Part shown: positions 6,667 through 63,105 of the stretch, piece after piece
Numbering within the stretch: position 1 is the stretch's first letter
Layout of the letters: each line of letters opens with the position of its first letter
Source of the DNA: Symbiodinium natans
Lineage: Eukaryota > Sar > Dinophyceae > Suessiales > Symbiodiniaceae
Direction of reading: 5' to 3'
DNA length: 64,000 bases
Assembly (NCBI GenBank): GCA_905221605.1
Contig: CAJNDS010002035.1
Coordinates: 1-64,000 of the forward strand
Position numbers and translations under genes: made by a program
The notes under the pieces: model-generated
The model's input: the letters and a program-made list of their open reading frames with translations, nothing else
The model's database searches: none
What the model was told of the DNA's origin: nothing

Positions 6667-6707
6667 TGCTAACCCTTCTTTGACATTTGCTCGACCCTGA
6701 GTGGCTA

Positions 6708-6735
6708 AGTGATTGTGAGTGTGAGTGTGAGTGTG

Positions 6736-6766
<31 letters not shown>

Positions 6767-37001: not shown

Positions 37002-40000
37002 CTAAGAAGGTGTTCCTACAAGACCTAACGTGACTTTCGCAGCACGCAAAAGAGCTCTACCCAGTTTAGTCGGATAGATACCTGTTTCTTCGACACTAGC
37101 AAGTGAAACATGCTGATGACTTTTGTCACAGGGCTTTCCAGAGAAGATTTCACTCCACTCCTCTCGGTTTGTAGCAAAGAACCACCGCTTAAAGACCCCG
37201 TCGAAGGCACAACGGTCCACAACCCTTCCAAAGTTCAGACCAAGGCGCTTCTTTTCTTTCAGATAACTTTCCTCCTTCCAAAGACCACAGTTCTTTGGCC
37301 ATTCCTGGGTAACCAGGATCTCTTTGCAGCGGTCCTCCAGAAGTCGTCCTAAAGCTTTCCAAGAGGCAACATGCTTCTTGACCTGCTCTCGCCACCGATG
37401 TCGAAACTTCGGTCGATGCCAGTTCTTAAAGCGGTAGCTACATCCAGCGGTACACGGGGAAGCTATGTGGACATAGATCTGGGGCGGTTTCCTACTCAAC
37501 AGACACAGCAAGACCTCTCCTAGAAACATTTGAGTACTCTTGCTTAAGAAGTCTTCTTTCTCAGTTATGCCAATATATGCTACTCGGTCACGAGCACACG
37601 CTCGGCACAACGCACTGTCCGTTGAACAAAACACCTCGATCACAAGCAGAGGAACAGATCCCAACGCAAGGTCTCTTGCCACTGGCTCGTACTTCGCCAG
37701 GTTTGTCGGGATTTTCTCAAGCTTTTCACATACTTCTTCAAGTTCTTCCATTCGTTCACGAAGGTGTTCAGGAACTACAAGACCCTGAAGGTCTTCTTCA
37801 CACACTCTTTCCAGTCCACACGCAACCAGCAAATGCTCAAGCAACAACTCCTCAGGAGATTTCGTCAGTCCATCGGCTGGATTCCGTTCTCCACTGATGA
37901 AGCTTAGAATCAGCCTTTCCAGGTGGACTAGCTCTTGAAGATAGCGATGACGAAGCTCCAGGTGCCGAACACGGCGTAACAACCCCGTCATTTTGCTAAT
38001 CGACAAAGCGGCTTCCGAATCCGAAGCCAGGTGAATCGGAAACTCACCGGTCTCTCCTTTGGGCATTCCATACAGGAGCGTTTCCATGAGCAAAGACAAG
38101 TACACCGACTCTTTGGCTGCCTCAGTCAGGGCTGCCAATTCGGCCTCCGCCGAACTCAACGCGGTCACCGACTGTTTCCGCGAGAAAGTTTTGATCATGA
38201 TGCCATGCCACTTCACAATGGCACCAGACACAGAGCAAATGTTCCATGACGCATCCACAAAGCCAGAGAGCATGGTTTCCGAAGCGCAGCAAGGATACTC
38301 AAACGCTTCTGCCGAAAATCGCTGAAGGTACTCAGGCAAAGCCATCACCCAACGAACCACGCGTCTCAAGCAAGCTTCTGCCTGGCTATCTGGGTCACTC
38401 TGATACCGGCCCAGAAATCCTACCGGGTAGGACAAATGCGGCAACGTCAGGCTTGCCCACATCAACTTACCAAGCACACGTCTATAGCGTTCATACGCCT
38501 CAGTGCTGATAGGTGTTCCAGCCTCCTTCTTCCGGTACTCCCTCTCGAGGTTTCCCAGCACTGGTTTCACACCTTTTCCGCTAATGCCAAACTCTTCTCC
38601 AAGCGACTTCAAGTACCCCGGCTTCAGGCCAAAGAACACAGGCCCGTGCTCAGTGGTTCGGGCGATCACTCGACCCAAGAACTCGAGCTGCCCAGTCTTG
38701 CCAGGTTCTAGAAGCCCTGTCTGCTTCATTTTATAGATCTTCGCTAGCTTAGCGTACAGATCCTTGGCAACTGGCGGATTCTGGGAAAAGATGATGAGAT
38801 CGTCAACATACACTAACACCAAGGTCAGCGCACCATCCTTCTCAAGCCGGTGATGCACAGTAGGGTCGGCAGTCTCACCAAACCCAAACTGCTTACGCAG
38901 CGTGCTTGTAAACTCTAGGTACCAGCTCAGTGGTCCTACTCTCAAGCCATTCATGGCTTTGTGTAGCTGCGCAAACAGCGGCTTGTTCTCCTCATCATAC
39001 ATCCCATTCGGAAACCGGATACACTCTACTCCCTGCACAGGCGCTTGCATGAAGGCAACGCTCACATCTGCTGACAACAAGGTGCCACCTCTGACAGCAT
39101 GAATAGCAAGGACACCCCTCAAGGCTTCCAAAGACGTGGTGGGGGAATATATCCCGTCAGCTAGAGGATTGGATCCAAATGCATAGTCTCTCACAACAAG
39201 ACGAGCACGAACTCGTTCAGGGTTCGTGGCCGACGGTTTCGAAGTCAGAACCCACCTAGTCGTATGGATTCTTCGTGTAGCTCGTTTACGGGCCTCAGCT
39301 TCTCCTATAATCGTAGCTACACCAAAAGCATCAAGTTCTGAGAGCTCGAGTCTCATACCTTCTTCAAGATGCTTACGAGGCAAAACCTTGCCAGAAACTT
39401 CGCAAACCGCATTGTCCGGGACATGGACCCAAATCTTCTTTCCACCAAACTTCATACGGAACCACTCTTTGACATCATCTCCCTTACGGATTTTTGTCGT
39501 TACTCTCAAGTCAGGCCCATCAAAGAGTTGCCTAAGGCCATGCTCATAGAGCCACGTCAGGCCCTCTTCCATGGCATCGTCTTCTCCTGGATCCATAGGA
39601 GCGTCGAGGTCCTCAAGACCTACGCCTCCGGGAGGCTCAACCTCCATGCCTGTTTCTTCAGGCACGTCCGAAAAATCCGGAGAATACCCATCCAACTCTC
39701 CTTCTTCTTCCATTGCTTCAGGGCCCTCAAGAGCAGGTGGTTCGGTGCGTTCAACAGGAAACTCAAGACTTCCTTCAGGGATATTTGGGGAATCAAGCGG
39801 AAGACTCGGACCATCGATTGGAACATCGAACTTGATGGGTCTTTCAGGGTCTTCCTTATTACCTCGAAGGTCACGCAAAGCAGCTTTGTCAAACTCCACT
39901 GGATCTTTGGCACGAAAAGAGCTGAAGATTTCCAAAAAAGGGGGCTTTCCAATACCTATTGGAACAAAGACTCGAATCCCAGAGCCATTAGCACCGTGAG

Positions 40001-43000
40001 GTCCTACATAGAGTGCCCTCACCAAGCGCTTTCCGCGGTGCTCTGGGTAGTCCTTCTGAGGCTTCCCAAAACCCACAACCCCAAACTCACAGCTCTTCAC
40101 TGGCTGAACTGTCGACCCACGTAGTCTCTCCAACGGCGTGCTGTGTTCCTTGGACACATGAAACAAGTTATGCATCCTCACAGAGTACCTCATGGCCTCA
40201 ACAAACAGATGGCTCCCTAGAGGCAACTTTTCACCTACACGCTCTTCTAAGCCCAGCCAAACAGACCAGAACGCTTCTTTCACAAGGCAAACATGGCGTT
40301 CAACGATGCCCTTCGCTTGAGGTCTGTTTATCGCGAACGGGACCCAGTGCATTGACCTCCCCCCGAATGTCCGGTGTTTCGCTGCATTGCGGAAAACACT
40401 CTCGAGGAGATTTTCTTGGTCCCCGTGGACAACAATGTCCAATCCACTCAATCCCATTTCCGTAAAGGCTTTGCAAACCGATACAGCGGGCACTTCATCC
40501 TCAGGTCCTAAGACCACGGTATGTATGTACCCCGACACCACATGAACCATGAGAAGGAAACGAACATTCTTTCCGAAAAATCCAAAGTCGACTTGCAACT
40601 CTCCGGGTCCGTGGTGGTGTTTCATGTGCTTCCTACGAGCCGGCACTCTCCCTCTAGCGCTTTGACATGTGTCACAGCAACTAAGATAAGGTTGGTGGCC
40701 CTTATTTCGGTGCGCCTTCAGCCGCTCCGAGGTCAAATAGACCGGAACCTCAGGATCCAGAGCATCGCTCACCACCTCCGGGGAACTCAGGGCACCCGGT
40801 TCACCTGAGGGAACATTCTCCACACGGGGTTTCTTTCGAACATCGGAGGGCCTAGGGGGTTCACTTCCGCTGGGTTTCGCAAGTTCAGCTTCCAACGGAT
40901 CAGGAATCAACTCTTCCTCCGACTCCGAATTCACAACAACCGGGGTCGGCAAACCAGCAAGCATACGCAGGGCCTCAGAACGTGCCACGGCCTTCTTTTG
41001 CTCGGACCCCCGCAGGGACCCAAGCCCACACAAGGCCCACTTCTTCAAGGCACGCCAACGTTTCATCATTGGCCCTTTTGCTTCCTCGCCCGTAGGCTCA
41101 GCTTTCAACTCACAAGCAAGCACGCCACGCAAAAACAACAGGCGGCGCACAACACTCCAAGACCTACGTGGCACACGTCCTACCAAAGTTACACGCACAA
41201 ACTTCAGCCTACTCCTACGGCGCACACTCAAAAGCTTCACGCACCTACGCAGCCAACCTCTGAAAACCAAACCCAGAACCAACCCTAAAGCCAAGGCACT
41301 GCTTCCTTTCCATGAAGACCTGGGCACAGAGGGACAGTGTGCAGACCCATTCGCGGCAGGCAGGCTGCACTCACAGTCACCTACCAAGCACTCAAACGCT
41401 CCTACCCTACCTCCTAATGCACACAGCCAGTCTCCTACGGCAAACAGCAGGGCTTTCAGACCTACTCCTACCAATTTTGTGCATTGCGGCGAAGATCGGA
41501 GCAGCTCATGCCCGGCTTTTAAATTTAGGCCCTCAGGGCCCATACCCAAGCATATCAATCCATCTCGGAGCCAGAGTCTCCCACATCCGAATTGTCCATC
41601 GGTGGATTTGGAACCACCATACTCGTCTCTGCCGGCGGGGTCAAAGGAGAAGCGCTCCCCGGACTTCCAATGCCACCGACCATTGGCTCCATTGGGACCT
41701 CGGAACTCACGTCCATAGGGGTCCCAGGGGCACCGAATGCCTCCACGGGCGTCATCGGCATCTCGACCTCCATTGGAACCTCGCCCGCAAGCTCCCTCAA
41801 TGTATCTGGGTGCGGTGTCGATGGAGGAGGTAGAGGAGGCGGAGGTATAGGCAGGCTTGCTTCCATAGGCGTGCCTGGTGCCCAAGATGGAGGAGGTAGA
41901 GGAGGCGGAGTTAGAGGCATGCCTGCTTCCATAGGCGTGCCTGGTGCCGACGATGGAGCATAGGAAAAGACGGACGGCGTAAGCGGGGAAGGAGGGCTGA
42001 ACAGCAAGAAAGCCGGAGGCCCTGGTGGAAAAGCGGGGCCCGTCGACGATGATGGAGCCACCTCGGCTGTTGCAGCTCTCTTCATGTCGGCATGCAATCG
42101 AATCATTGCCTCGGCTTTTGCACGCGCTTGGTTGAGCAAAGCCCACCCCGAAGGAGGTGGAGCTGGAGCACTTTTGTGAAGAGGCGGTGCCGTGCCACCC
42201 GACGCGGATGGTGCAACATCCGGTATTATAGTTGGCGGTTGAGCAGCCAAAGTCACCCGGCGGTTGCTCTGGACGAGCACGTCCGCCAAAAGCGCTCTCA
42301 AGTCGGCAGCCGGCACACGCTCGACCTTGAGCTCGTTTGGCAGAATGCTTGCTAGCCCTGCCTCGAACAACTGGTATTGAGCAGGATGGCACCGCAACTC
42401 TCGAATCGCCTCCAGGTACAGAAGGAATTTCTTCAAGGTGAGCTGGATGCCAACCTGATTGTTGCGCCAGTACCCCCTTTGCTCGCATGGAAGGTGCGGT
42501 TGGCGGATGGTAGCAGTCACATCGGCGACTACCACCCCCATGGTGGTCAAAACATAGCCATACCTTGCATACTCTGCACGACGGTCGTGCTCTTCGACGA
42601 GGGTGTCCGTCAAAACCGACTGGTCCACCGTCGGAGCAGCAATGGCTCGCAGCTCGGCAATGAGCATAGGTTGCTTCACCGGAATGCCGCTTGTATTGAT
42701 CACCAACTCCTGTGTCTCCAACTCCCCAAGGCAGGCTGGAATCCCCAACAGCCGTTCGACCGAGCCAGGGGTCGAGGTAAAAAGGTCGATGTTTTGGAGA
42801 AGCTGCCTCGAAAGAGACAGCTGACCTTCCTCCTCGAAACGGTGCGCAAGACGAGCAATCATGCTCGTCGAAAAGGCTTCCACCTGGGCCACACTCCCAC
42901 TTTGGGAGTTCACAAGACAGAGCGGAGGCGAGGCTTCCGGAAGCTCCATCCTTTCCAAGGTCCCTTACAAAGGCTCCAGGCTTTGAGCAAAACACTCCTA

Positions 43001-45497
43001 GAGCACACAACACCAGCAATGCTTTCAGAAACACTCCTGGCCAACGCAAACTCCGAAAGGCACACTTCCTCTCTTCACTCTGTCCCAACAAACACTCAGG
43101 CACACAAGCGCTGGGGTGCAAGTCACTCCTACGTCCTACACGCAAGGCACTCCTACTCCTAATGCAAACACTCTGAGGCTGGAGCGGCACAGGCCCTACC
43201 CCTACGCACTCAAAACCCTTGTCTCCACAGCGTGTGTCCCTACTGGTTTGCTTCTCCAAAGACGTGTTGCTTGCAGACTTAAGCACAACAGCTGCGGCGG
43301 AACATAAAGCTTCAGCACAACATGCAGAGGGTGGGGTTTCCAGGTCTACTCCTACTTTCGCAACTGCAGCATGCTCACATCCACTCAAACGCTCCTGAAA
43401 AACATGCTCATGCAGCTCATGTTCCCCCACATGTTGCTTCACTGAAAATGCTCGCAACAAAAACTTAAAAGGCGTCACCTCCAATGCTCTTCCTACGTTG
43501 GGCGGTGCCTTCTTCTGCACCTTATCCACTTCCATCGCGTCGTCGTTCGGGCTCCACCCCGGCTTGGGTGAGTCCCCTTTGCTTCTTCTTCCTTTCGGCT
43601 TTGCCTTGGTAGGGCCAATCTCCTTAGCCAACGCCCACCAGCTCCTGGCTTCACGAACCAAAGGCACCCACATCGAGGAACCTCGTTCCGTCTGCTTCAC
43701 CAAGCAGCTTGCTCCAGGCTCTGAGGTGAGCCAGGTACTCCATCCCGAAAGGGATGCTTGCCAAGAACTGACTACGTTGAAACCAATCTTGCAAACCAAG
43801 ACCTGTTGAAGCACTACGGGCCCCAACTTCCCAAACTTCACCCGAATGTCAACCAACTTGACACATTCCATGGGCGTATCGCTAGCACTCATGAGCACAG
43901 GAAGAGGTCCCGAATGCTCCTTGACGACTTCGTAAAAACCCAACGCACTCTCTGACAACACGTGGCAGGTGGCTCCACTATCAATGAGCCATGCGAAAGA
44001 GCTATTCCTAGAGGAGGACTGGTTCAGTCTCTCGATCTCTCCGTTCGTCATGGTGAGACGAGGGGGCTCAGCTTCATTGGGCTCATTAGTTCTTGTCCCC
44101 GGACCCAAGCCACTCAGATGATGAGACCGCATCGCCATCACCTGGTCAGACTGCTCGTCTTCCACAGCTCGGCCCTTGGGCTTTCCTTTGTTCTTGGGCT
44201 TCCCCTTGGGCTTTCCACCCTTTCCTTTGTCTGTCTTCCCTTTGCCTTTGCCCTTGCCTTTAGGACTCTTCTCTCGATTCTTGGAACCAGAAGGCTTTCC
44301 ACCTTTCGGTTCATCCCTCTTCTTTCCTTTTCCAGAGCTCTTGTCGGGGCACTGCCAACTCATATGGCCTGATTTGCCACAGTTCCAGCAGAGGCCGCGC
44401 TCCCCAACTGCATTCAGCGAACCGGCATCACACAATCGGGTTTGCTCCTCGTAGAACCGGATGCTTTCAACCAGTTCCTCCCAGCTCCCAGACTTCCCAT
44501 GCAGGACAACGTAATGCCTACACTCTGGGCTGACAGATTGAAGAAGAAGGGTTGAACGATCAGATGCTCCAAGCCTCAGTTCAGGGAACCGATGCAGCTT
44601 CTGGTCTACCTTCCCAAGCTCGTCCTCAAGGAAGCGGACGCAGTCAAGCGGTCGCTTGTACGAACTCGCCTTCGAAGTTAGGCGAAGGGCTTCATCTCTC
44701 ACAGCAATGGCCTCCATGCGAGAGACAATGCTGAAGGTCTGGTGCATTTGACGCATCACCTCATAACCACAAGCAGCTTGTCCTTGACGCATCGACGTGC
44801 TTCTCACCAGTTCCATCCCACGTTCGAACTTCTGCAGACTTTGTTGCAGGTAGTAAAACAACCTTGCCGAACGCGATGCTACCGGAACTGCCATGTCAGA
44901 CTGCTTGATCTCACGGTCATGCGTCATTGCCTGGCGCAACTCATTGACATAGTTGTCGTCTATCAACGCCAGCCAGGAAGCAAGCACCTCGCACCACCGA
45001 TGGTACTCCTCCAGCTCTCTCACACGCCCTTTTCCCATCGACACATTATCGATGAGCGGCAATGCTGGCAGATACTTCTCTGCACGGTTACTTCCAACAT
45101 GCAGGTTCTGTGATGGCGCCGGTGGAGGAGCAGAAGCCTTTGCCGTGGGACTTCCAGCAGCTGCTGCACTTGAAGCACCCCCAAATGGGTTGCTCACAGC
45201 TGCCGACAATGCTTCCTGCTCACGTCTCCTTCTCTCGTCGGCCTCCATCTTTGCCACCAGAACTTGAAGTGTCTGTTGCTGATTCTGCATCATCATTTGC
45301 TGACTCTGCATCATCTGGACCATCATCTGCTGGAGTTGAGGGTCAAGTCCGACGACCGTGGCGGGTCCTCCCGCTGGAGCAGAAGCTCCAGGGGGTTGTG
45401 TTGGCGGTTGTTGCCCGTCCTGGGCACCACCGGGGCCAAACAAAGCTTCGTCGTCTTCGTCTTCAGGCACAGGGGTCGACAGCCCGGGGTCAGCCAT
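37002..45497 (-). CDS. Copia Gag-Pol polyprotein, 2831 aa, with extra domains
   Basis: One uninterrupted frame. Gag has a CCHC zinc knuckle (CWNCGKSGHMSWQC, near residue 367) followed by a Lys/Gly-rich tract. Protease has DSGATCH near 504. Integrase begins with an H-H-C-C finger (HQPYLSCCDTC near 1600) and shows the D, D, E residues in VDFGF (~1636), HGDQEN (~1692) and GIVER (~1733). RT has YVDD near 2231; RNase H has FVDASW (~2414), SSAEAELAA (~2450) and SDSEA (~2493). Usual copia polyproteins are about 1300-1500 residues. The excess is a roughly 1000-residue segment between protease and integrase and a roughly 215-residue C-terminal extension. The start is the ATG 31 bp after the PBS. The protein would be made as a polyprotein and cut by its own protease. 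Confidence 0.95.
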   Translation of the reverse strand: MADPGLSTPVPEDEDDEALFGPGGAQDGQQPPTQPPGASAPAGGPATVVGLDPQLQQMMVQMMQSQQMMMQNQQQTLQVLVAKMEADERRRREQEALSAAVSNPFGGASSAAAAGSPTAKASAPPPAPSQNLHVGSNRAEKYLPALPLIDNVSMGKGRVRELEEYHRWCEVLASWLALIDDNYVNELRQAMTHDREIKQSDMAVPVASRSARLFYYLQQSLQKFERGMELVRSTSMRQGQAACGYEVMRQMHQTFSIVSRMEAIAVRDEALRLTSKASSYKRPLDCVRFLEDELGKVDQKLHRFPELRLGASDRSTLLLQSVSPECRHYVVLHGKSGSWEELVESIRFYEEQTRLCDAGSLNAVGERGLCWNCGKSGHMSWQCPDKSSGKGKKRDEPKGGKPSGSKNREKSPKGKGKGKGKTDKGKGGKPKGKPKNKGKPKGRAVEDEQSDQVMAMRSHHLSGLGPGTRTNEPNEAEPPRLTMTNGEIERLNQSSSRNSSFAWLIDSGATCHVLSESALGFYEVVKEHSGPLPVLMSASDTPMECVKLVDIRVKFGKLGPVVLQQVLVCKIGFNVVSSWQASLSGWSTWLTSEPGASCLVKQTERGSSMWVPLVREARSWWALAKEIGPTKAKPKGRRSKGDSPKPGWSPNDDAMEVDKVQKKAPPNVGRALEVTPFKFLLRAFSVKQHVGEHELHEHVFQERLSGCEHAAVAKVGVDLETPPSACCAEALCSAAAVVLKSASNTSLEKQTSRDTRCGDKGFECVGVGPVPLQPQSVCIRSRSALRVGRRSDLHPSACVPECLLGQSEERKCAFRSLRWPGVFLKALLVLCALGVFCSKPGAFVRDLGKDGASGSLASALSCELPKWECGPGGSLFDEHDCSSCAPFRGGRSAVSFEAASPKHRPFYLDPWLGRTAVGDSSLPWGVGDTGVGDQYKRHSGEATYAHCRAASHCCSDGGPVGFDGHPRRRARPSCRVCKVWLCFDHHGGGSRRCDCYHPPTAPSMRAKGVLAQQSGWHPAHLEEIPSVPGGDSRVAVPSCSIPVVRGRASKHSAKRAQGRACAGCRLESAFGGRARPEQPPGDFGCSTANYNTGCCTIRVGWHGTASSQKCSSSTSFGVGFAQPSACKSRGNDSIACRHEESCNSRGGSIIVDGPRFSTRASGFLAVQPSFPAYAVRLFLCSIVGTRHAYGSRHASNSASSTSSILGTRHAYGSKPAYTSASSTSSIDTAPRYIEGACGRGSNGGRDADDARGGIRCPWDPYGREFRGPNGANGRWHWKSGERFSFDPAGRDEYGGSKSTDGQFGCGRLWLRDGLICLGMGPEGLNLKAGHELLRSSPQCTKLVGVGLKALLFAVGDWLCALGGRVGAFECLVGDCECSLPAANGSAHCPSVPRSSWKGSSALALGLVLGLVFRGWLRRCVKLLSVRRRSRLKFVRVTLVGRVPRRSWSVVRRLLFLRGVLACELKAEPTGEEAKGPMMKRWRALKKWALCGLGSLRGSEQKKAVARSEALRMLAGLPTPVVVNSESEEELIPDPLEAELAKPSGSEPPRPSDVRKKPRVENVPSGEPGALSSPEVVSDALDPEVPVYLTSERLKAHRNKGHQPYLSCCDTCQSARGRVPARRKHMKHHHGPGELQVDFGFFGKNVRFLLMVHVVSGYIHTVVLGPEDEVPAVSVCKAFTEMGLSGLDIVVHGDQENLLESVFRNAAKHRTFGGRSMHWVPFAINRPQAKGIVERHVCLVKEAFWSVWLGLEERVGEKLPLGSHLFVEAMRYSVRMHNLFHVSKEHSTPLERLRGSTVQPVKSCEFGVVGFGKPQKDYPEHRGKRLVRALYVGPHGANGSGIRVFVPIGIGKPPFLEIFSSFRAKDPVEFDKAALRDLRGNKEDPERPIKFDVPIDGPSLPLDSPNIPEGSLEFPVERTEPPALEGPEAMEEEGELDGYSPDFSDVPEETGMEVEPPGGVGLEDLDAPMDPGEDDAMEEGLTWLYEHGLRQLFDGPDLRVTTKIRKGDDVKEWFRMKFGGKKIWVHVPDNAVCEVSGKVLPRKHLEEGMRLELSELDAFGVATIIGEAEARKRATRRIHTTRWVLTSKPSATNPERVRARLVVRDYAFGSNPLADGIYSPTTSLEALRGVLAIHAVRGGTLLSADVSVAFMQAPVQGVECIRFPNGMYDEENKPLFAQLHKAMNGLRVGPLSWYLEFTSTLRKQFGFGETADPTVHHRLEKDGALTLVLVYVDDLIIFSQNPPVAKDLYAKLAKIYKMKQTGLLEPGKTGQLEFLGRVIARTTEHGPVFFGLKPGYLKSLGEEFGISGKGVKPVLGNLEREYRKKEAGTPISTEAYERYRRVLGKLMWASLTLPHLSYPVGFLGRYQSDPDSQAEACLRRVVRWVMALPEYLQRFSAEAFEYPCCASETMLSGFVDASWNICSVSGAIVKWHGIMIKTFSRKQSVTALSSAEAELAALTEAAKESVYLSLLMETLLYGMPKGETGEFPIHLASDSEAALSISKMTGLLRRVRHLELRHRYLQELVHLERLILSFISGERNPADGLTKSPEELLLEHLLVACGLERVCEEDLQGLVVPEHLRERMEELEEVCEKLEKIPTNLAKYEPVARDLALGSVPLLVIEVFCSTDSALCRACARDRVAYIGITEKEDFLSKSTQMFLGEVLLCLLSRKPPQIYVHIASPCTAGCSYRFKNWHRPKFRHRWREQVKKHVASWKALGRLLEDRCKEILVTQEWPKNCGLWKEESYLKEKKRLGLNFGRVVDRCAFDGVFKRWFFATNREEWSEIFSGKPCDKSHQHVSLASVEETGIYPTKLGRALLRAAKVTLGLVGTPS
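37005..37645 (-). other. Methyltransferase-like C-terminal extension of copia Pol
   Basis: Residues about 2617-2830, after RNase H. The order VIEVFCSTDSALCRA, HIASPCTAGCS, VTQEWPKNCGLW, RWFFATN, ending in a GIYPTKLGRAL stretch, resembles the motif I, IV (Pro-Cys), VI (Glu) and later blocks of Rossmann-fold C5 cytosine methyltransferases. The match is by pattern only. The residue after PC is Thr rather than the usual Gln, and ENV is replaced by EWP, so activity is uncertain. Confidence 0.5.
41555..42958 (-). CDS. 467-codon ORF overlapping the copia polyprotein in another frame
   Basis: Same strand as Gag-Pol but shifted by one base. It has its own ATG and stop, and covers the polyprotein's codons about 847-1315 between protease and integrase. 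The first 240 residues look like a folded helical protein (for example IARLAHRFEEEGQLSLSRQ, LTDTLVEEHDRRAEYARYG). The rest is Pro-rich (PPPLPPPS, APGTPME repeats) with an acidic end. In contrast the polyprotein frame here is rich in Cys, Ser, Gly and Arg and looks like a by-product. No family was recognised. It may be a captured gene or an accessory ORF, with translation perhaps by frameshifting or a separate transcript. Confidence 0.55.
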   Translation of the reverse strand: MERMELPEASPPLCLVNSQSGSVAQVEAFSTSMIARLAHRFEEEGQLSLSRQLLQNIDLFTSTPGSVERLLGIPACLGELETQELVINTSGIPVKQPMLIAELRAIAAPTVDQSVLTDTLVEEHDRRAEYARYGYVLTTMGVVVADVTATIRQPHLPCEQRGYWRNNQVGIQLTLKKFLLYLEAIRELRCHPAQYQLFEAGLASILPNELKVERVPAADLRALLADVLVQSNRRVTLAAQPPTIIPDVAPSASGGTAPPLHKSAPAPPPSGWALLNQARAKAEAMIRLHADMKRAATAEVAPSSSTGPAFPPGPPAFLLFSPPSPLTPSVFSYAPSSAPGTPMEAGMPLTPPPLPPPSWAPGTPMEASLPIPPPPLPPPSTPHPDTLRELAGEVPMEVEMPMTPVEAFGAPGTPMDVSSEVPMEPMVGGIGSPGSASPLTPPAETSMVVPNPPMDNSDVGDSGSEMD

Positions 45498-45527
45498 GGC
45501 TTCTAGTTTCTACGAGCGTGCTACACA

Positions 45528-45540
45528 CGCTCCGCTACCA
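45528..45540 (-). promoter_or_regulatory. Primer-binding site, initiator tRNA-Met type
   Basis: On the element strand TGGTAGCGGAGCG follows the 5' LTR with no gap. It would pair with a tRNA 3' end CUCCGCUACCA, close to eukaryotic initiator Met tRNAs (AGCxGAG acceptor stems). The host tRNA was not seen in this window. Confidence 0.75.
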
Positions 45541-45939
45541 TGTGAAAACACAGCAGCAGCGCGCTGAACCCTCTTTTTCTCACGACTTGAGCCAAAGTCA
45601 TAAGCCGGAGGCTTCGTCAGTGAAACTCTTTACACACAGGTGAAAACTCTGCTCTGCCACGTGTTCTCCACAGCCACAAAACAAACTCAAACGTCAGTGG
45701 GAGTTCTCGGGACCTACCCAACTACACCTAAAGCAAGCAAAAACGTGTACAGTCACTCCTACAGCTTTCAGACACACATCCCTACAACTCAAGCAATTCA
45801 AAAGGCTTTCCCACTTAAAGCAGCACTCCCGTCGAGCCTCCAAGGCACAACTACGGAGTTCCTCCAACTACACACACACAACTCTGAGCCAGCATGCAGG
45901 ACAACAAAGTTAACATGTCCTTAGACAGGAACTTTCACA
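45541..45939 (-). repeat. Copia LTR (5' LTR of the element), 399 bp
   Basis: Appears identical to 36488-36886. It should hold the element promoter on its minus strand. An 11-base stretch (45586-45596) reads TTTGGCTCAAG in the element direction, the same as the end of the dinoflagellate spliced leader. Confidence 0.97.
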
Positions 45940-45944
45940 AAGAA
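45940..45944. repeat. Target-site duplication, right copy (AAGAA)
   Basis: Matches 36483-36487 on the other side of the element. Confidence 0.9.
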
Positions 45945-46186
45945 AGCCATACCACCAGGGACTCCGAGAGCCTCGCTTTGTCCAGCTGCGGGACCGGGCA
46001 ATCCAACATTTCAGCAAGGTCGAAATGCTGCAATGCCCCCGACAATCTAAGGCACTGCGTGACGATAGGGTCATAAACCTTCAAATACGCTGCCGGAAAC
46101 GTTTCAGGCAGATGCAGTAGCGTGTCAGCGATTCCGATCAGCATATCCGAGTCTTGCAGCTGGTTCGGTACGCCGTTCAAAAACAC
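45945..46186 (-). pseudogene. Coding-like sequence cut by the copia insertion
   Basis: A minus-strand open frame with protein-like composition (IADTLLHLPETFPAAYLKVYD, cut short at 46186 on its 5' side) runs into the right LTR. Removing the element and one target duplication joins it to the coding-like sequence at 36482, but in a different frame (shifted by one). The locus was therefore probably already damaged, or an intron lies here. Function unknown. Confidence 0.4.
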
Positions 46187-46189
46187 CTC

Positions 46190-47690
46190 ATAGGCCCTAT
46201 ATGCCCGAACTGCTGGCAGTGTGTTGTGAGGTGTTGCGAGTCACGCAGGTTCATGTAGGGCCGAGGTTTGACATTCTTGCCAAAGTGATGTCCCGCTGCA
46301 AGTGCGCGCCACATGAGATCACAGGTTGACAGCCGGTCCGACAATGGCCTTCAGCCCGGCGGCCTGCATGACTTCGGTTTGACGATGCTCATACAGAGAA
46401 TCGATTCCAGCATCGATACCGCTGAGAACCACACCTCAGACGCTCCAGAGGAACGGTGAGGCTTGCTCCAAGAGGGCATCTCGCCTGGTCCCTTTTTCCA
46501 CGGGCCGGAACTTTGGGCCGTTTGCCGCAAAAGGGCCGGCAAGGTGGCTGGCGTGTGGAGGTCGGCAGAGACCGCATTGAGGCCAAAATCGTTTGCTCCA
46601 ACAACTCCGTGATGAAGTGTTAATTGGGTCGCGATCCTCCAGCGGGCTGTCTGTGGTCGCCAATCATAACATCAAGTGCATGCTTGATGTGCGCCAGAAT
46701 GTGTTGGAACCAGACGTGTCCAATTACTGGGCTTCATCTCGGAGGAGCAACTCAACATCCTTTTGACGGTTAATGAGCTGTGAGTAGGGAAAGCTCAGCC
46801 TTGCCACAATCGTTCCATGTGTCGTGGCTACAAGTAGCCCCCGGTACAAATCGTGCACAGGAGCTTATGTGTGTCCTTCTCCTTGTTACCCGGCGTGCGA
46901 ACGATGCGGCTTATCAACCGCTTCGACACAGGCCCGAACCGATTTATTGCCATGAGCGGTGTTTAGGGTGAGCCGGCTCGCAGGCACGCAAGGAGTAATT
47001 GTAGAAACGCGCAGGATTCCGCTGCCGGGCGCACCCGTTGTGAATACAGAAGTACGATTCGCACCTTGATAGCTCAAGGTCTCGTGTCGTGATTACAGCT
47101 TAAAGAATGCGCCCCATGCTCGAATAGCAGATGTATCTTCCCCGAGTCAGCTGTCGCTTGCTGCACATGACGTCTCGCGGCCACTGTGGCATGTTGCAGT
47201 CGGCTCTTGCTCAAGCGTTCAAAAGAATCGTCCTGCCCAGTGGAGTGCCCACTCCATGTCGGCATGCATGCAGAAGTTGCGCTTGATCGAGTCCACCTGT
47301 GCCATGCCTCTGCAAGACCCCCTTAGCAGGCACGCTGGCCAGTCGACGTTCAACTTTGTATTGGCGATCCCATTTCCCACCAGTACGTGCAAAGGTAATC
47401 ATCTTGCAACGTGCCACCAGCTCTCCAGGCCGTGTGGAGCAACGGGCTCTTTGGGCTGCCTGCGCGGGCCCGCGGAGGCAGCGAACCGGTTCGGATCCAG
47501 CTCTTCCCGGTAGTAATGCACTGCAACCGGAAGTGTGGCCAACTCAACATCCCAAGAAGGCTCTTGGTTGTTTTGGTGCGGCGTATTGGAAGGAAACCCT
47601 TCTTTGTCTCCAGCTCGCTGGCTTGGAGATGGAGCAAGTCAAAAATGACGAAAGCAGATGAGATGTGACCACACAAACAACAGACTCTAC
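46190..47690. other. No clear gene
   Basis: Short frames on both strands, none with a recognisable domain. A minus-strand stretch at 46351-46620 has some protein-like composition and may continue the decayed sequence at 45945-46186. Confidence 0.4.
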
Positions 47691-48101
47691 GGCCTTCAAG
47701 CCTTTGTGTTTACAAAGGGAAAATGAACTTTGTGTGAAATGCAGGAAAATGTCCAAGTAATTGAAGACTGGAAGCCAGGCTGCGGAAGAGGCAGGCAGCA
47801 GGTTTTGCAGGCTTGCTGTAGGGTCTGTTGGGGCGGCGTGCGGCAGGGTCTGGTTCTGCAGGCGCTGCTGACCTGCAGGCTGCTGCAGGGTCTGCAGGCT
47901 TGCCGACAGCCTACAAACCCTGCAGTGTTACATGCAGGTTCTGCAGAACGCAGCCCGACCTGAGAGCTACCTTGAAATTGCAAGGACTTGGAACCTGAAG
48001 GATGCTTGTCTCCGGTCACAAGCCCTTGCATGTGCCCCCGAGCCCCGCAATGTTGGATGCCGAAGGTCGGTCTGACATGACCAACGTGTTGCAACATTGC
48101 C

Positions 48102-48537
48102 CTGGCGCTCGAACAGTTGGGCGGACTCTGCGATGTTCTATCCGGATCCATCAGAGGGAACCTGGCCTCTATTAACTTCGTCAATCATGTACATGTTTGA
48201 TTTGTGATGAAAATTACGTTCTTGTTAATAATATATGCGAACAAAAAAATGTTTTAAATTGTTAAATTTATGAAGAGTAAAATTTTAATGATCAAAAATG
48301 CGTAGAATGTAACAAAGGATTTTATTTATTCGAAAATTAATGTCATAAAGGTAATCTAAAATATTGTGAATCTTACTTCTCAATCTGGACATCAAAAAAT
48401 TACACTATAGAATAATATTGATGTTGTAGTTGAAAATAGACTTAATAAGAGGGTTCAAAGTGACCGAAATGAGACACTAATAGGACCAAGAATACGTGGT
48501 TAAAGGCACTATGTGTCCCATTCAGTATAAGTTTGAC
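48102..48537 (+). mobile_element. 436-bp insertion defined by comparison with sister copies
   Basis: In copies 2 and 3, block A joins block B directly (AACATTGC(C/T)ATTGGGG). Here 436 bp intervene and TTGCC occurs on both sides (48097-48101 and 48538-48542), as a 5-bp target duplication would. The ends are not inverted repeats and no LTR is visible. The first ~85 bp have normal GC content and the rest (from about 48185) is strongly AT-rich, unlike anything else in the window. Confidence 0.75.
48203..48421 (+). pseudogene. Cys-rich protein fragment readable only with TAA = Gln
   Basis: In frame from 48203 the AT-rich insert reads CDENYVLVNNIC, then NC-Q-IYEE-Q-NFNDQKCVECNK, then GFYLFEN-Q-CHKG and KYC, where each Q set off by hyphens is a TAA codon. 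The Cys spacing with C..C..GFYL....C is typical of the furin-like or growth-factor-receptor-like Cys-rich repeats of ciliate surface proteins. Ciliates (also hexamitid diplomonads and some green algae) read TAA/TAG as Gln. The frame ends at TGA near 48419. It is a fragment, not a working gene here. Confidence 0.55.
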
Positions 48538-49720
48538 TTGCCATTGGGGAAAGGGGATTTTCGACAACACTTATTGATTTGGGACAGGTCGGCCCTTTGC
48601 TGCGGGTTTGGAGAATGTGCCTCAAGTGAAGCCAAATCCGACCCCAGAAAGACACAAGAAGCGTAGGACACGTTTGAGTGCCCCCGCAGTTGCAATTCAG
48701 CTTGTCATGTGCAATACCTGTTCCGTTATAACGCTATTGCCAACAGTTTTAAGCGACCGCTGACTATCTTTGCGCCCGACCCAAACATGTGGTGCATGCT
48801 TTGCGTGTCTCCGCAAAATTGAAAGCGCACTTGCCTTGCCACGTTTCACGGCCCATTCTGGGGTCCTATTTTTGGGCCCCAAAGCGAAGCCCAAAATGGG
48901 ATCTTCTCTAAGAGTTTCGAATCAGGCAGACCCAGTTTTGGAACCCAATTTCTGGCCTCAAAATGAAGGCCAAAAACTGTGCGATTTCTGATAAGAAGAC
49001 ACACTTTTGAAGCTCGCCGAAATTTGCCCGACGTGAGGACCGCTCCCGACATAAGACAATAAAAATGCACCGCTGCGTGGCAAGCGGTCGGTGGTGGGCC
49101 TGTACTTATTCATAAAGGCGCCATTCAGGTTGCCACTGGGGGGGTACTCTGATGCGTCCTATGTTTCTCGTCGTTTGTCGGTCCTGAATGTGGACCCGCG
49201 CGATACCGCGTTTTTTAGCGGTTTTTCCAACGGGCAGCCCGCAAAAGTTGGAAAAAAGGCTCTGGGAGTCCTGATGAGGTTTTGGAGCCCTTGAAGGGGA
49301 TTGTGAGGCCTTACTTGAGTATTTGAAAGACTGGTAAACCGTATAACCCTTGAGAAAGCGCGTGTAGCAGACCTGTACACGAGTACTACACTCAAAAAAT
49401 GCGGGAAAACAGCGTGTAGTACCTTGATTCCAAGTAGAAACATTACATGGACATGAACCTTAAAGTTTTGAAAAAACTATGCATTCATGTAGTACACTGT
49501 GGTTTTTCCCCAGCGCGGAGCGTGTAGTACCAGTTTTGATGAAATTACACCCGAGGCGAAATCCAGCTTTTCCCACAGCGCGGAGCGTGTAGTACTAGTT
49601 TTCATGAAATTAGACTGGCGGAAAAATCCAGCTTTTCCTACAGCGCGGAGCATGTGACACCTGGTTTTTAATTTGCAGTTCTACAGGTCAGGGGCTTTCA
49701 AGCTTCCTGCAGACTCTGGG

Positions 49721-52378
49721 GCCTTCAAGGCTTTGTGTTTACAAGGGGAAATGGACTCTGTGTGAATGCAGGAAAATGCCCAAGTAATTGAAGACTGGAA
49801 GCCATGCAGGCTGGGGGAGAGGCAGGCAGCAGGTTTTGCAGGCTTGCTGTAGGGTCTGTAGGGGCGGCGTGCGGCAGGGTCTGCAGGTTGCCCGCAGGCG
49901 CTGCTGGCCTGCAGGCTGCTGCAGGGTCTGCAGGCTTGCCGACAGCCTACAGACCCTGCAGCTGTAGGCTTGCTGCAGGGGTCTGCAAGCTTGCTGCGTC
50001 AGGCTGCTGCAGGGCCTGCAGGCTGGCTGCAGATTCCGCATGCTTGCTGCAGGTCTGCAGGGTCTGCAGGTTGCTGCAGTGTTACATGCAGGGTCTGCAG
50101 AACGCAGTAAGCAGCGCAGCCCGACCTTGAGAGCTACCTTGAAATTGCAAGGACTTGGAACCTGAAGAGCCTGGAAAAGGATGCTTGTCTCCGGTCACAA
50201 GCCCTTGCATGTGCCCCCGAGCCCCCAATGGCAATGTTGGATGCCGAAGGTCGGTCTGACATGACCAACGTGTTGCAACATTGCCATTGGGGAAAGGGGA
50301 TTTTCGACAACGCTTATTGATTTGGGACAAGGTAGGCCCTTTGCTGGGGGTTTGGAGAATGTGCCTCAAGTGAAGCCAAATCCGACCCCAGAAAGACACA
50401 AGAAGCGTAGGACACGTTTGAGTGCCCCCGCAGTTGCAATTCAGCTTGTCATGTGCAATACCTGTTCCGTTATGACGCTATTGCCAACAGTTTCAAACGA
50501 CGCTGACTATCTTTGCGTCCGACCCAAACATGTGGTGCATGCTTTGCGTGTCTCCGCAAAATTGAAAGCACACTTGCCACGTTTCACGGCCCATTCTGGG
50601 GTCCTATTTTTGGGCCCCAAAGCGAAGCCCGAAATGGGATCTTCTCTAAGAGTTTCGAATCAGGCAGACCCAGTTTTGGGACCCAATTTCTGGCCTCAAA
50701 ATGAAGGCCAAAAACTGTGCGATTTCTGATGAGAAGACACACTTTTGAAGCTCGCCGAAATTTTGCCCGACGTGAGGACCGCTCCCGACATAAGACAATA
50801 AAAATGCACCGCTGCGTGGCAAGCGGTCGGTGGTGGGCCTTTACTTATTCATATAGGCGCCGTTCAGGTTGCCACAGTTGCAATTCAGCTTGTCATGTGC
50901 AATACTTGTTCCGTTATAACGCTATTGCCAACAGTCTTAAGCAACCGCTGACAATCTTTGCGCCCGACCCAAACATGTGGTGCATGCTTTGCGTGTCTCC
51001 GCAAAATTGAAAGCACACTTGCCACGTTTCACGGCCCATTCTGGGGTCCTATTTTTGGGCCCCAAAGCGAAGCCCGAAATGGGATCTTCTCTAAGAGTTT
51101 CGAATCAGGCAGACCCAGTTTTGGGACCCAATTTCTGGCCTCAAAATGAAGGCCAAAAACTGTGCGATTTTCTGATGAGAAGACACACTTTTGAAGCTCG
51201 CCGAAATTTTGCCCGACGTGAGGACCGCTCCCGACATAAGACAATAAAAATGCACCGCTGCGTGGCAAGCGGTCGGTGGTGGGCCTTTACTTATTCATAT
51301 AGGCGCCATTCAGGTTGCCACAGTTGCAATTCAGCTTGTCATGTGCAATACTTGTTCCGTTATAACGCTATTGCCAACAGTCTTAAGCGACCGCTGACAA
51401 TCTTTGCGCCCGACCCAAACATGTGGTGCATGCTTTGCGTGTCTCCGCAAAATTGAAAGCACACTTGCCACGTTTCACGGCCCATTCTGGGGTCCTATTT
51501 TTGGGCCCCAAAGCGAAGCCCGAAATGGGATCTTCTCTAAGAGTTTCGAATCAGGCAGACCCAGTTTTGGGATCCAATTTCTGGCCTCAAAATGAAGGCC
51601 AAAAACTGTGCGATTTCTGATGAGAAGACACACTTTTGAAGCTCGCCGAAATTTTGCCCGACGTGAGGACCGCTCCCGACATAAGACAATAAAAATGCAC
51701 CGCTGCGTGGCAAGCGGTCGGTGGTGGGCCTTTACTTATTCATATAGGCGCCATTCAGGTTGCCACTGGGGGGACTGGGGGGGTACTCTGATGCGTCCTA
51801 TGTTTCTCGTCGTTTGTCGGTCCTGAATGTGGACCCGCGCGATACCACGTTTTTCAGCGGTTTTTCCAACGGGCAGCCCGCAAAAGTTGGAGGCTCTGGA
51901 GGTCCTGATGAGGTTTTGGAGCCCTTGAAGGCGATTGTGAGGCCTTACTTGAGTATTTGAAAGACTGGTAAACCGTATAACCCTTGAGAAAGCGCGTGTA
52001 GCAGACCTGTACACGAGTACTACACTCAAAAAATGCGGGAAAACGGCGTGTAGTACCTTGATTCCAAGTAGAAACATTACATGAACCTTAAAGTTTTGAA
52101 AAAACTATGCATTCATGTAGTACACTGTGGTTTTTCCCCAGCGCGGAGCGTGTAGTACCAGTTTTGATGAAATTACACCCGAGGCGAAATCCAGCTTTTC
52201 CCACAGTGCGGAGCGTGTAGTACTAGTTTTCATGAAATTAGACTGGCGGAAAAATCCAGCTTTTCCTACAGCGCGGAGCATGTGACACCTGGTTTTTACA
52301 GCGCGGAGCATGTGACACCTGGTTTTTAATTTGCAGTTCTACAGGTCAGGGGCTTTCAAGCTTCCTGCAGACTCTGGG
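49721..52378 (+). repeat. A-B-C tandem duplication, copy 2 (B triplicated)
   Basis: Block A at 49721-50283, block B at 50284-50876 followed by two further partial B units (50877-51322 and 51323-51766, periods 444 and 446 bp), then block C at 51767-52378. Successive B units are almost identical. Confidence 0.9.
49800..50110 (+). repeat. CTGCAG-rich minisatellite in block A
   Basis: Dense CTGCAGG, GTCTGCAG and GCTGCAG motifs about every 10-20 bp. The same array occurs in copy 3 at 52458-52770 and in shortened form in copy 1 at 47790-47945. Confidence 0.9.
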
Positions 52379-53092
52379 GCCTTCAAGCCTTTGTGTTTAC
52401 AAGGGGAAATGGACTCTGTGTGAATGCAGGAAAATGCTCAAGTAATTGAAGACTGGAAGGCATGCGGGCTGGGGGAGAGGCAGGCAGCAGGTTTTGCAGG
52501 CTTGCTGTAGGGTCTGTAGGGGCGGCGTGCGGCAGGGTCTGCAGGTTGCCCGCAGGCGCTGCTGGCCTGCAGGCTGCTGCAGGGTCTGCAGGCTTGCCGA
52601 CAGCCTACAGACCCTGCAGCTGTAGGCTTGCTGCAGGGGTCTGCAAGCTTGCTGCGTCAGGCTGCTGCAGGGCCTGCAGGCTTGCTGCAGATTCCGCATG
52701 CTTGCTGCAGGTCTGCAGGGTCTGCAGGTTGCTGCAGTGTTACATGCAGGGTCTGCAGAACGCAGTAAGCAGCGCAGCCCGACCTTGAGAGCTACCTTGA
52801 AATTGCAAGGACTTGGAACCTGAAGAGCCTGGAAAAGGATGCTTGTCTCCGGTCACAAGCCCTTGCATGTGCCCCCGAGCCCCCAATGGCAATGTTGGAT
52901 GCCGAAGGTCGGTCTGACATGACCAACGTGTTGCAACATTGCTATTGGGGAAAGGGGATTTTCGACAACACTTATTGATTTGGGACAAGGTAGGCCCTTT
53001 GCTGGGGGTTTGGAGAATGTGCCTCAAGTGAAGCCAAATCCGACCCCAGAAAGACACAAGAAGCGTAGGACACGTTTGAGTGCCCCCGCAGT
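52379..53092 (+). repeat. A-B-C tandem duplication, copy 3 (truncated)
   Basis: Block A at 52379-52945 and only the first ~147 bp of block B, which stops within CCCCCGCAGT. Unrelated sequence begins there. Confidence 0.88.
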
Positions 53093-60674: not shown

Positions 60675-61349
60675 TCAATCCTGAGAGTGGATTGTAATTG
60701 GAGGACAACGAATAGTGTTAACAAGCAGCTCGGGCCTGCCTTCATTGTCAGTGAAGAAGACTTCTTCTTCTCTACCACTGTCAGATCTGACGCTGTCAGC
60801 GGCAAGTCCTGCAAGATGATCAGCGACTTTATTGCCTATTCGAGGCACATATGACCAATGGACTTTGACTGGCGATTGCGCAAGTAGTTGCCAAAGGGAG
60901 TCTAGCTTTCTTACAAGGTCAGCTCTGTGGATGCAAATGGCGCCCGCAAAGTGTTTTACAATGTTTAGGCTGTCCCCTTGAATGATCACTTCTTGAATGC
61001 CTTACAAGCGGCAAGCTCAAGAGTTTCAGCAGTGGTTTCGACAGCCGCAACAATTTCCGCAAACATAGAATCGGAGCAGGGTTGAAGAGGCACTGCAATG
61101 GTTTCGAGAATGTTGGGTGTTGGCCCAGGGGCCCAAATGACACCTCCTGCCCCGCCTATGCCTGCCTTCCTGGACGTCGAACTGAGCGACAAGGTGGGTG
61201 TCTTGAAAGGGCTTGAGCTCCACGATAAGTGGAGTGAACGCAGGCAGGTCTGATAGTCGTAACCTGAAGATGTAAGCTTCCGCAATGGCACATCTTAGGA
61301 AAAAGAGCGACATTAGGCATGCCTGACGCTTGATGATACATTGGAGCAA
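60675..61349 (-). pseudogene. LINE RNase H remnant
   Basis: The N-terminal half reads THLVAQFD (61026-61349 frame), then continues as GIGGAGGVIWAPG and SMFAEIVAAVETTAETLEL in the 60986-61291 frame. The C-terminal half reads IIQGDSLNIVKHF and VHWSYVPRIGNKVADHLAGL (60675-60989). These match the D, E, D and N.aDhlA blocks of RNase H1, split by two single-base frame shifts. Confidence 0.8.
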
Positions 61350-61623
61350 GGACTAAGGAAGTAGTGCGGTGGGTCCAAAGTTGCAAGGATGTGGTTGTAG
61401 GAGGCATTTATGTTGGCGACAGTGATTCCCTGTGCGCTCGATTTTATGAGTGAAGAGAGAGGGTTTCTCACTTCTATCCGCAAGTTGCTCTCGTGACAAC
61501 ACACCTTGGCTTTATCACAGTTTATCCACCATTCTGGCAGCGTCTTGGGCATGAGGATGCGGGGAACATTTATCCAAATGCGCGAGGCAAGCAAGGCAAG
61601 TTTGGTCATATGTTTGCTCCGAT

Positions 61624-62211
61624 TCACCCAGGGTGCCAGGTACATTGTTCTTCCATAGTGTACCTTCTCATAGTTGCGAGCCAAAAAAGAGCAACAGCAC
61701 AGAGGCGCTTGTCCATCTTACTTCCATTGCTTTCAAAATCAAGAGCTTGCTTCAGCGTACTAATGAGATTGTCTGCTAAAGTATAGCCCAGTTCATGCAG
61801 ACCAATGAAAAGCGAAGCTCTGGATATATCACAATTAGTGATCCAATGCTCGGTGGTATTGGAGGCTTTGCCACAAAGTAGGCAGGGAGCTTCTATATAC
61901 TGTGCTTGCGACGCATGTGGCAGCGCGGCACGATATATGATCTGCCGGCCTAGATTTTTGCTCTTGGTTTGCAGGGCTCTGCAAAACCGGGCATCGACCA
62001 TCAGCACGTCCTGGGAACATAGCTTGAAGGTAGTCTTGAACATCAACCGGGCAATCTTCCCAGGTAATACACGCAGCACATATAGGGAGGCAACCGTACC
62101 CTTGATCATACAGGAGATTTCGCCCTTTGCAGTGAAGTTTACAAGCGCGGCAAATTTCATCCCTTGTAGCGTGCTGACGGTAAATAAAGTACGTGTCAGC
62201 CTCTTCAGCAA
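61624..62211 (-). pseudogene. LINE zinc-binding (zf-RVT-like) region
   Basis: A 195-codon frame with CLLCGK then TTEHWITNC (about 61831-61888), the CxxC...H....C motif found after RT in many LINEs. Composition is otherwise typical of RT connection regions. An additional frame at 61313-61684 continues toward RNase H. Confidence 0.72.
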
Positions 62212-62420
62212 CCGCCCATCTCAGGGCATAGCGCCTCGTGATGTTGCTCGCAATGGTCTTAGGCGGAAGATTCAGCGTTAGTAGAATCGTTCCAAGAAGG
62301 TCAGCATGGAAGTGGTTAGAAATCTTACTCTTCAGGTATTGCTGAGCTTGGATGCATGCAGCATTCCTTAAGACTGCACGTAGTGCGAGCTGGGCTTTTT
62401 TCAGACCTTGTACAATAGGC

Positions 62421-63105
62421 TTATTGTACCGAGGTGAGAGGACATCGTCGCAGCTTTTCCTCGCTGCACGTTACCGCCTTTTGGACCTTTCCCTTGACCT
62501 GCTCTAAGAGTTTATGAAGGAAGGGTTGGAGTCTGTCCTCAATAGGATCAAGGTCGTAAAGAATGGCATTCAGAGTCCATCTTCCTTTCCATCTCAGGAG
62601 CAGTCCTACCTGCGAAAGTGTTGAGTTGATTTGAGGGTCCATCACTCTTGGTGCCTTAACAAAGTCCAGCGACCCAGCCCAGTGCCGAGCTTGTAGCCAT
62701 GGTCTTCGCAAGATCGTATTGCTAGGCCAGCAGAGTGGGGGCAAAGGTTATTTGCGCTTGATTTATCCACCGTACGCCTTTGGCTGCAGCACTATTATCA
62801 TCCATGTACGCAGTTAAGCGAATGAAGGCGGAGACATTATGGAGAGCACAAATCAACGGGTCAAGGGCTAAACAAAAGAGAACCACAGAGGTGGCTCGTC
62901 CCATCGCTAATCCTTGATTGATCATCAAAGGAGGGAGGAAGTGCCCTTGTATCTTATGCTGGATTCTCCTGCCAAACAGGAGGTGAATGACATAGGCTTT
63001 GACCCATGCTGGGGCGACTCTGGCTGCAAGGCATTCAAGCACCCACCAGGGATTGATCCGTTCAAAAGCCTTAGCAAAGTCAGCTCAATTTGCATGTTTT
63101 GGCCA
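62421..63105 (-). pseudogene. LINE reverse transcriptase core remnant
   Basis: From about 63095 the frame reads ADFAKAFERINPWWVLECLA, then NQGLAMGRATSVVLFCLALDPL and AYMDDNS (active site near 62798-62809). A TGA stop lies just upstream of ADFAKAF. The sequence continues in another frame at 62744-62421. The QG and YMDD blocks are clear RT motifs, so the identity is firm though the gene is broken. Confidence 0.82.

Follow-up and report, generated by a model that had tools for sequence, protein, structure and literature searches.

Captured DNA enters nuclear genomes at double-strand breaks, where it remains as insertions of the type known from NUMT-like patches and filler DNA. The segment analyzed here, 436 bases at positions 48102-48537 of a 64,000-nucleotide stretch of Symbiodinium natans DNA (the window), resembles these insertions in being short, in lacking transposon ends, in occupying a single locus and in its patchwork composition. 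It differs from them in its clean 5-base target duplication and in its source, which was probably a recoded eukaryote.

A second point of comparison is provided by the furin-like and VSP-type repeats of protist proteins (PF15913, PF13948 and PF03302). The AT-rich core of the insert shares eight cysteines, a G[FY]YL motif and the NC..Y spacing with these repeats, but it is only 77 residues long, falls below the cut-off in Pfam and contains four in-frame TAA codons.

The third comparison is with two lineages whose genes make frequent use of TAA as a sense codon. In the parts of PMC1805757 drawn on here, the hexamitid Spironucleus salmonicida is described as reading TAR as glutamine, with TAA the commonest glutamine codon, and as carrying 149 genes with more than 10% cysteine, most of them closest to Tetrahymena proteins; the two likely full-length genes of this cysteine-rich group have furin-like or EGF-like domains. 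For Amoebophrya ex K. veneficum, whose host is a dinoflagellate, the portions of PMC12005148 used here report in-frame stops (58% UAA) in about half of the gene models and regard UAR as probably encoding glutamine. To judge from these excerpts, both organisms resemble the core in their frequent use of TAA as a sense codon and in their AT-rich genomes, and Spironucleus also in its cysteine-rich, partly furin-like families (PMC1805757), whereas codon choice and base composition fit poorly.

Set beside these systems, the locus is best read as foreign DNA from a recoded protist, most likely a ciliate, which was captured during break repair and holds no working gene. We regard this reading as moderately probable.

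Integration into one copy of a tandem repeat

A tandem repeat spans about 47.7-53.1 kb of the window. The copies at about 48.1, 50.3 and 52.9 kb can be aligned with each other up to the sequence TTGCC (TTGCT in the third). Alignment of the three copies identifies 48102-48537 as a 436-base insertion in one of them: in the first copy TTGCC is followed by foreign bases and then by TTGCC again, whereas the other two run on directly. The target-site duplication is exactly 5 bases long, with its left copy at 48097-48101 and its right copy at 48538-48542, as established from the three-copy alignment and a scan of nine sites. Both empty sister copies within the window hold a single site, TTGCC at 50281-50285 and TTGCT at 52939-52943, and the first 30 kb of a second contig, C2501, contribute five further empty sites with one TTGCC each as well as one filled site. 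Across the window and this part of C2501, two of the nine target sites are filled and the other seven empty, with one copy of the target in each of the seven (TTGCC in six, TTGCT in one). A preliminary description of the locus had proposed that the sister copies lack the 436-base segment and that it is an insertion flanked by TTGCC; this is borne out, with exact boundaries. Because of the duplication and the empty sister copies, and with the insert present on two contigs, we conclude that 48102-48537 is a real integration.

C2501 carries the same insert, 100% identical, within the same flanks. Its first 14,569 bases are colinear with positions 37478-52086 of the window at 99.23% identity (59 mismatches and 9 gaps), and within the 3,436 bases around the insert the two contigs show five differences, all of them to the right of 49,578. 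Beyond the colinear part C2501 has more copies of the repeat, so that its downstream repeat structure differs from that of the window. A search of the assembly (759,417,921 bases in 2,543 contigs, with the window forming the start of contig C1749) found two copies of the insert only, both in colinear duplicated sequence. Beyond the window and C2501, the 759-Mb assembly gave no match to the complete insert or to its left or right piece, and the core, searched as protein at E <= 10, likewise found only its own two copies. Most simply, the filled pair represents one event that was later duplicated or is seen in two haplotypes or strains. C2501 starts inside its colinear copy of a copia-type ORF that occupies 37002-45497 of the window on the minus strand (2,831 aa, with RVT_2 and a zinc knuckle).

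These results bear directly on the concern that the insert is an assembly artefact, in which a read from a contaminant was merged into a contig of the dinoflagellate. Other protists can live in cultures, and both contigs may share a source within the assembly process. A misjoin, however, would not make a 5-base duplication of a target that is single in the sister copies, and the same join recurs on a second contig with a different downstream repeat structure; this recurrence of insert and flanks argues against a one-off assembly chimera. Moreover, the outer pieces and the core are found nowhere else in the assembly. We therefore consider an artefact very improbable.

Mobile elements of known types fit the insert badly. 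A DNA transposon or MITE was rejected both on its ends, which carry no terminal inverted repeats (the best pairing was 5 of 10 positions, equalled or bettered by 1,766 of 2,000 shuffles), and on a copy number of two in 759 Mb, within colinear duplicated sequence. For a solo LTR the 5-base target-site duplication fits, but the ends read CTGG...TGAC and not TG...CA. The absence of terminal inverted repeats, of TG...CA ends and of other copies together argues against a mobile element.

In composition the insert can be divided into three pieces, with borders that are our own choice and were set from the reading frame and GC content. The left piece (48102-48187) has 53.5% GC, the core (48188-48421, with its terminal TGA included) 22.2% and the right piece (48422-48537) 37.1%, and the 1-kb flanks of the insert have 55.7% and 48.9%. 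The earlier characterization of an AT-rich insertion thus stands for the core and fails as a statement about the whole. Mixed GC content may mean that the insert is a patchwork of fragments, or that a single fragment came from a genome whose GC content shifts sharply. DNA searches with the whole insert gave one plasmid record and eight phage records; the plasmid match and the best five of the eight phage matches cover only 8-10% of the insert, and the best E-value among the matches listed was 0.4. Rfam and tRNA scans of the 64-kb window were empty, and no DinoSL relict was found when one was looked for there.

The window contains a number of other features. A LINE lies at 1552-5289 on the minus strand, where a single 1,245-aa ORF combines endonuclease and RVT_1, and at about 60675-63042, also on the minus strand, a short ORF that weakly matches RVT_3 (RNase H-like, slightly under the cut-off) is perhaps a decayed LINE. 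Degenerate telomere-like repeats of the TTATTAGGGTTTATAGGG type occur inside the contig at 17958-18082, in an AT-rich patch. A 379-aa ORF at 27385-28524 (minus strand) has a match to XK-related membrane proteins that is barely over the Pfam cut-off (E 6.1e-6), and a long CA/TG-rich simple-sequence tract at about 6700-8200 generates large spurious ORFs on both strands.

The cysteine-rich core and its genetic code

The core (48188-48418, plus strand) can be read as a two-unit cysteine-rich repeat of the furin/VSP-like kind, which stays open only when TAA is given an amino acid; the assignment draws on its frame, its cysteine pattern and its family scores. The frame has the cysteine pattern CTCLICDENYVLVNNICEQKNVLNCQIYEEQNFNDQKCVECNKGFYLFENQCHKGNLKYCESYFSIWTSKNYTIEQY and then TGA (48419-48421), and its 77 codons include nine cysteines and four TAA with no TAG or TGA. 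The TAA codons lie at 48263-48265, 48278-48280, 48338-48340, where the codon gives the residue before the cysteine of FEN-x-C, and 48413-48415, all on the plus strand. A cysteine-rich, furin-like frame starting at 48203 with three in-frame TAA codons had been put forward before our analysis. The cysteine-rich pattern is confirmed, but the frame already holds from about 48188 and contains a fourth TAA.

Nine cysteines in one TGA-free frame arose in 20 of 20,000 dinucleotide shuffles, counted in any of the six frames. Of the two cysteine motifs used in the shuffle test, which were picked after the sequence had been seen, C..C..G[FY][YFL] occurred in 1 of 20,000 dinucleotide shuffles and C..C..G[FY]YL in none of 20,000. 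GC content by codon position falls along the cysteine frame (0.27/0.24/0.15), and neither of the other forward frames behaves in this way. GC by codon position, the cysteine shuffles and the family alignment described below are three lines, not wholly independent of each other, which indicate that selection acted on this frame as protein.

An open code-6 frame was rejected as evidence in its own right, as AT islands of the host also carry long TGA-free frames. Two such islands, L022 6001-6532 and L018 9692-9999, have about 29% GC within host contigs of roughly 50% GC; their TGA-free frames are long and show no likeness to the cysteine-rich family. The existence of such islands in the host sample, some with long code-6 frames, lends something to the idea that AT-rich non-coding DNA merely happens to read as cysteine-rich. 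Against it, a scan of 294 kb found C..C..G[FY]YL at two places only, the insert and its counterpart on C2501, and the core attained a summed family score of 785.6 bits when the best of 117 control windows reached 36.3. These controls, of up to 77 residues, were drawn from nine AT-rich stretches translated in six frames, and they include the core in its other frames. Chance resemblance is, in our judgment, extremely improbable.

The repeat family behind this score was collected with a typed bait of our own choice, which contained the core and many glutamines; of 670 candidates, 89 proteins matched at E <= 10. Many of the 89 carry PF03302; one is named as a Tetrahymena utriculariae protein (P0066) and one as an Entamoeba marina protein (P0023). 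The core has the layout CxxC..GYYL....C....NC..Y of the fetched family, a layout that was itself our choice. To reduce the bias from the bait we set aside every protein with a 5-residue word in common with the core; it was over the 81 of 89 that remained that the core summed to 785.6 bits, with a best single domain match of 23.8 bits. None of 300 shuffles with fixed cysteines (highest 266.4) and none of 200 full shuffles (highest 231.9) reached this sum. With all 89 proteins the core sums to 873.6, a value reached by none of 500 cysteine-fixed shuffles (highest 529.5) and none of 500 full shuffles (highest 124.9). Six cysteines are invariant in a 13-row alignment and a further two are shared for the most part, so that eight of the nine core cysteines align; the first cysteine of the core is not common to the family. 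Three of the TAA codons are covered by this alignment, all in variable columns, and the fourth (48413-48415) lies outside it.

Searched alone against 5.8 billion proteins, the core found no homologue at conventional significance, and searches of PDB, viral contigs and GTDB contigs returned nothing. In Pfam the core matches Furin-like_2 (E 0.24, 12.1 bits against a cut-off of 28) and DUF4215 (E 0.87, 10.4 bits against 27), and none of 40 shuffles of the core matches either family; the VSP family PF03302 was not reported on the core in the Pfam search at E <= 10. We rejected the Pfam E-values themselves as evidence, a wrong frame having reached E 0.034 and one shuffle E 0.00056 with another family. 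That both matches of the true frame are to cysteine-rich repeat families is of some use.

The four TAA codons could alternatively be nonsense mutations that arose as an AT-rich gene of the standard code, Entamoeba-like or of another kind, decayed to a fragment. Furin/VSP-like repeats do occur in other standard-code protists, and the Entamoeba marina protein is among the weak matches to the core (E 7.9e-4 in the 89-sequence set). In 4,000 simulations of neutral decay, which allowed no indels and assumed one base equilibrium, four stops were reached after 60 substitutions on average. All four stops were TAA in 12.8% of runs, all nine cysteines were kept in 2.2%, and both occurred together in 0.6%; requiring only the eight family cysteines raised these last two figures to 3.2% and 0.8%. 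The real frame, furthermore, shows no indel and keeps its GC3 signature, which speaks against such a history. Decay of a standard-code gene is thus decidedly unlikely. Taken together, the family scores, the shuffles and the rarity of such decay in simulation make it most likely that TAA is a sense codon in the eukaryote from which the core came.

The residues placed at the TAA positions were compared by summed score, which was 785.6 for glutamine, 779.0 for lysine, 773.3 for arginine, 757.3 for X and 682.0 for tyrosine. Glutamine came first of the 20 residues, less than 1% ahead of lysine, and this ranking is biased because the typed bait held the core and many glutamines. By best single score glutamine (23.8) is exceeded by threonine (25.8), lysine (25.6), arginine (25.3) and others. 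The ranking is consistent with TAA encoding glutamine in the donor and is not proof of it; if it did, the glutamine codons of the core would be four TAA and two CAA, with none ending in G. A Mesodinium-type code, in which TAA is read as tyrosine, is disfavored, coming 20th of 21 variants by summed score.

Candidate donors

Ciliates fit the core by their code, their AT-richness and the abundance of such cysteine-rich repeats in them. As no close relative of the core was found, we infer a ciliate donor rather than identify one. The preliminary description had argued for foreign, probably ciliate DNA; integration and a cysteine-rich core in which TAA is probably a sense codon are upheld, and the ciliate donor is not confirmed by any close relative. 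Nor did the match to a TAR=Gln organism that it had named as a check appear in the protein, viral-contig or GTDB searches, whose collections offer few ciliate sequences. TAR=Gln genes would be broken in the protein collection if its entries were mainly predicted under the standard code. The only named ciliate protein fetched for the family, that of Tetrahymena utriculariae, has no match to the core at E <= 10.

The same event could have involved another donor, either a hexamitid diplomonad or a syndinean of the Amoebophrya ex Karlodinium type. A syndinean lives inside dinoflagellate cells, and its DNA would have the shortest path to the nucleus; Spironucleus contigs show sharp GC shifts, like those of this insert, in the parts of PMC1805757 used here. 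The codon fit with Spironucleus is nevertheless poor, the probability of finding no G-ending codon among six for glutamine being 0.043 and that of at most two TGC among nine cysteines 0.026. Spironucleus cysteines are, in the same excerpts of PMC1805757, mostly in CXXC motifs, and in the core this applies to four of nine. Amoebophrya from K. veneficum is 65.2% AT, less AT-rich than the core (78%), and the portions of PMC12005148 on which we draw mention no furin-like family for it. We consider a donor from either of these groups possible, if rather unlikely, and retain a ciliate as the most likely source, with the remaining probability left to other donors or to error.

Target hairpin, proposed route of entry and implications

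The target lies in a long hairpin. The empty sister site at 50223-50292 has an intact 17-bp stem, formed by 50223-50239 with 50276-50292, and contains one TTGCC; the second, at 52881-52950, carries TTGCT and has a hairpin with one mismatch. The folded empty site has a stability of -24.6 kcal/mol (z -5.63), with none of 200 shuffles as stable, and both of the hairpin copies that were folded are far more stable than their shuffles. All seven empty copies keep the 17-bp hairpin, one with a mismatch, those on C2501 lying at 12718, 15376, 26158, 27898 and 29630, and the hairpin may have a function of its own. In the filled copy only a remnant persists (48040-48101), in which the left arm lacks CAATG and the right arm is cut after TTGCC.

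The 5-base loss from the left arm spans the same stem position as the cut in the right arm. This loss could be due to chance, since the left flank of the filled copy shows eight indels over 419 aligned bases. Nonetheless, the cut right arm and the left-arm loss together suggest a break across an extruded hairpin, followed by repair with stray DNA and a five-base fill-in. In this model, a double-strand break would have occurred at the long hairpin in one copy of the tandem repeat and would have been repaired with captured DNA, leaving the 5-base target duplication behind. The captured DNA would include about 235 bases of a gene for a cysteine-rich, surface-type protein from a donor that reads TAA as glutamine; this would most likely be a ciliate that the host encountered as prey, as a grazer or as a companion. 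Later the patch may have been duplicated together with some 14.6 kb of its surroundings, or it may be common to two haplotypes or strains. Since the standard code stops the frame four times, the insert is probably a scar and not a working gene, with function absent; we infer this absence, as we do the reading of TAA as glutamine in the donor, the ciliate donor and the break-repair mechanism, from the features set out above.

Arguments for DNA transfer between eukaryotes usually rest on trees, and contamination is easily mistaken for such transfer. At this locus the direction of transfer would be readable in the code, because a frame that needs TAA as a sense codon is unlikely to be a working gene of a standard-code host. 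The transfer section of a dinoflagellate genome review deals, in the part considered here, mainly with bacterial and viral donors (PMC11453091, section 7). Likewise, in open-licence literature searched by titles and abstract openings, ciliate-coded DNA in a dinoflagellate nuclear genome was unreported among the matches listed. A more far-reaching proposal, offered tentatively and in our view unlikely to hold, is that recoded-protist DNA, possibly that of an intracellular syndinean, was trapped at the hairpin break, and that scraps of this kind make up a genome-wide record, legible through its foreign code, of the eukaryotes that the dinoflagellate lineage preyed on or was infected by.

With the insert read as a captured fragment of recoded-protist DNA, its value is that of a tagged scar. 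TAR-coded fragments across dinoflagellate assemblies would make both the rate and the sources of uptake measurable.
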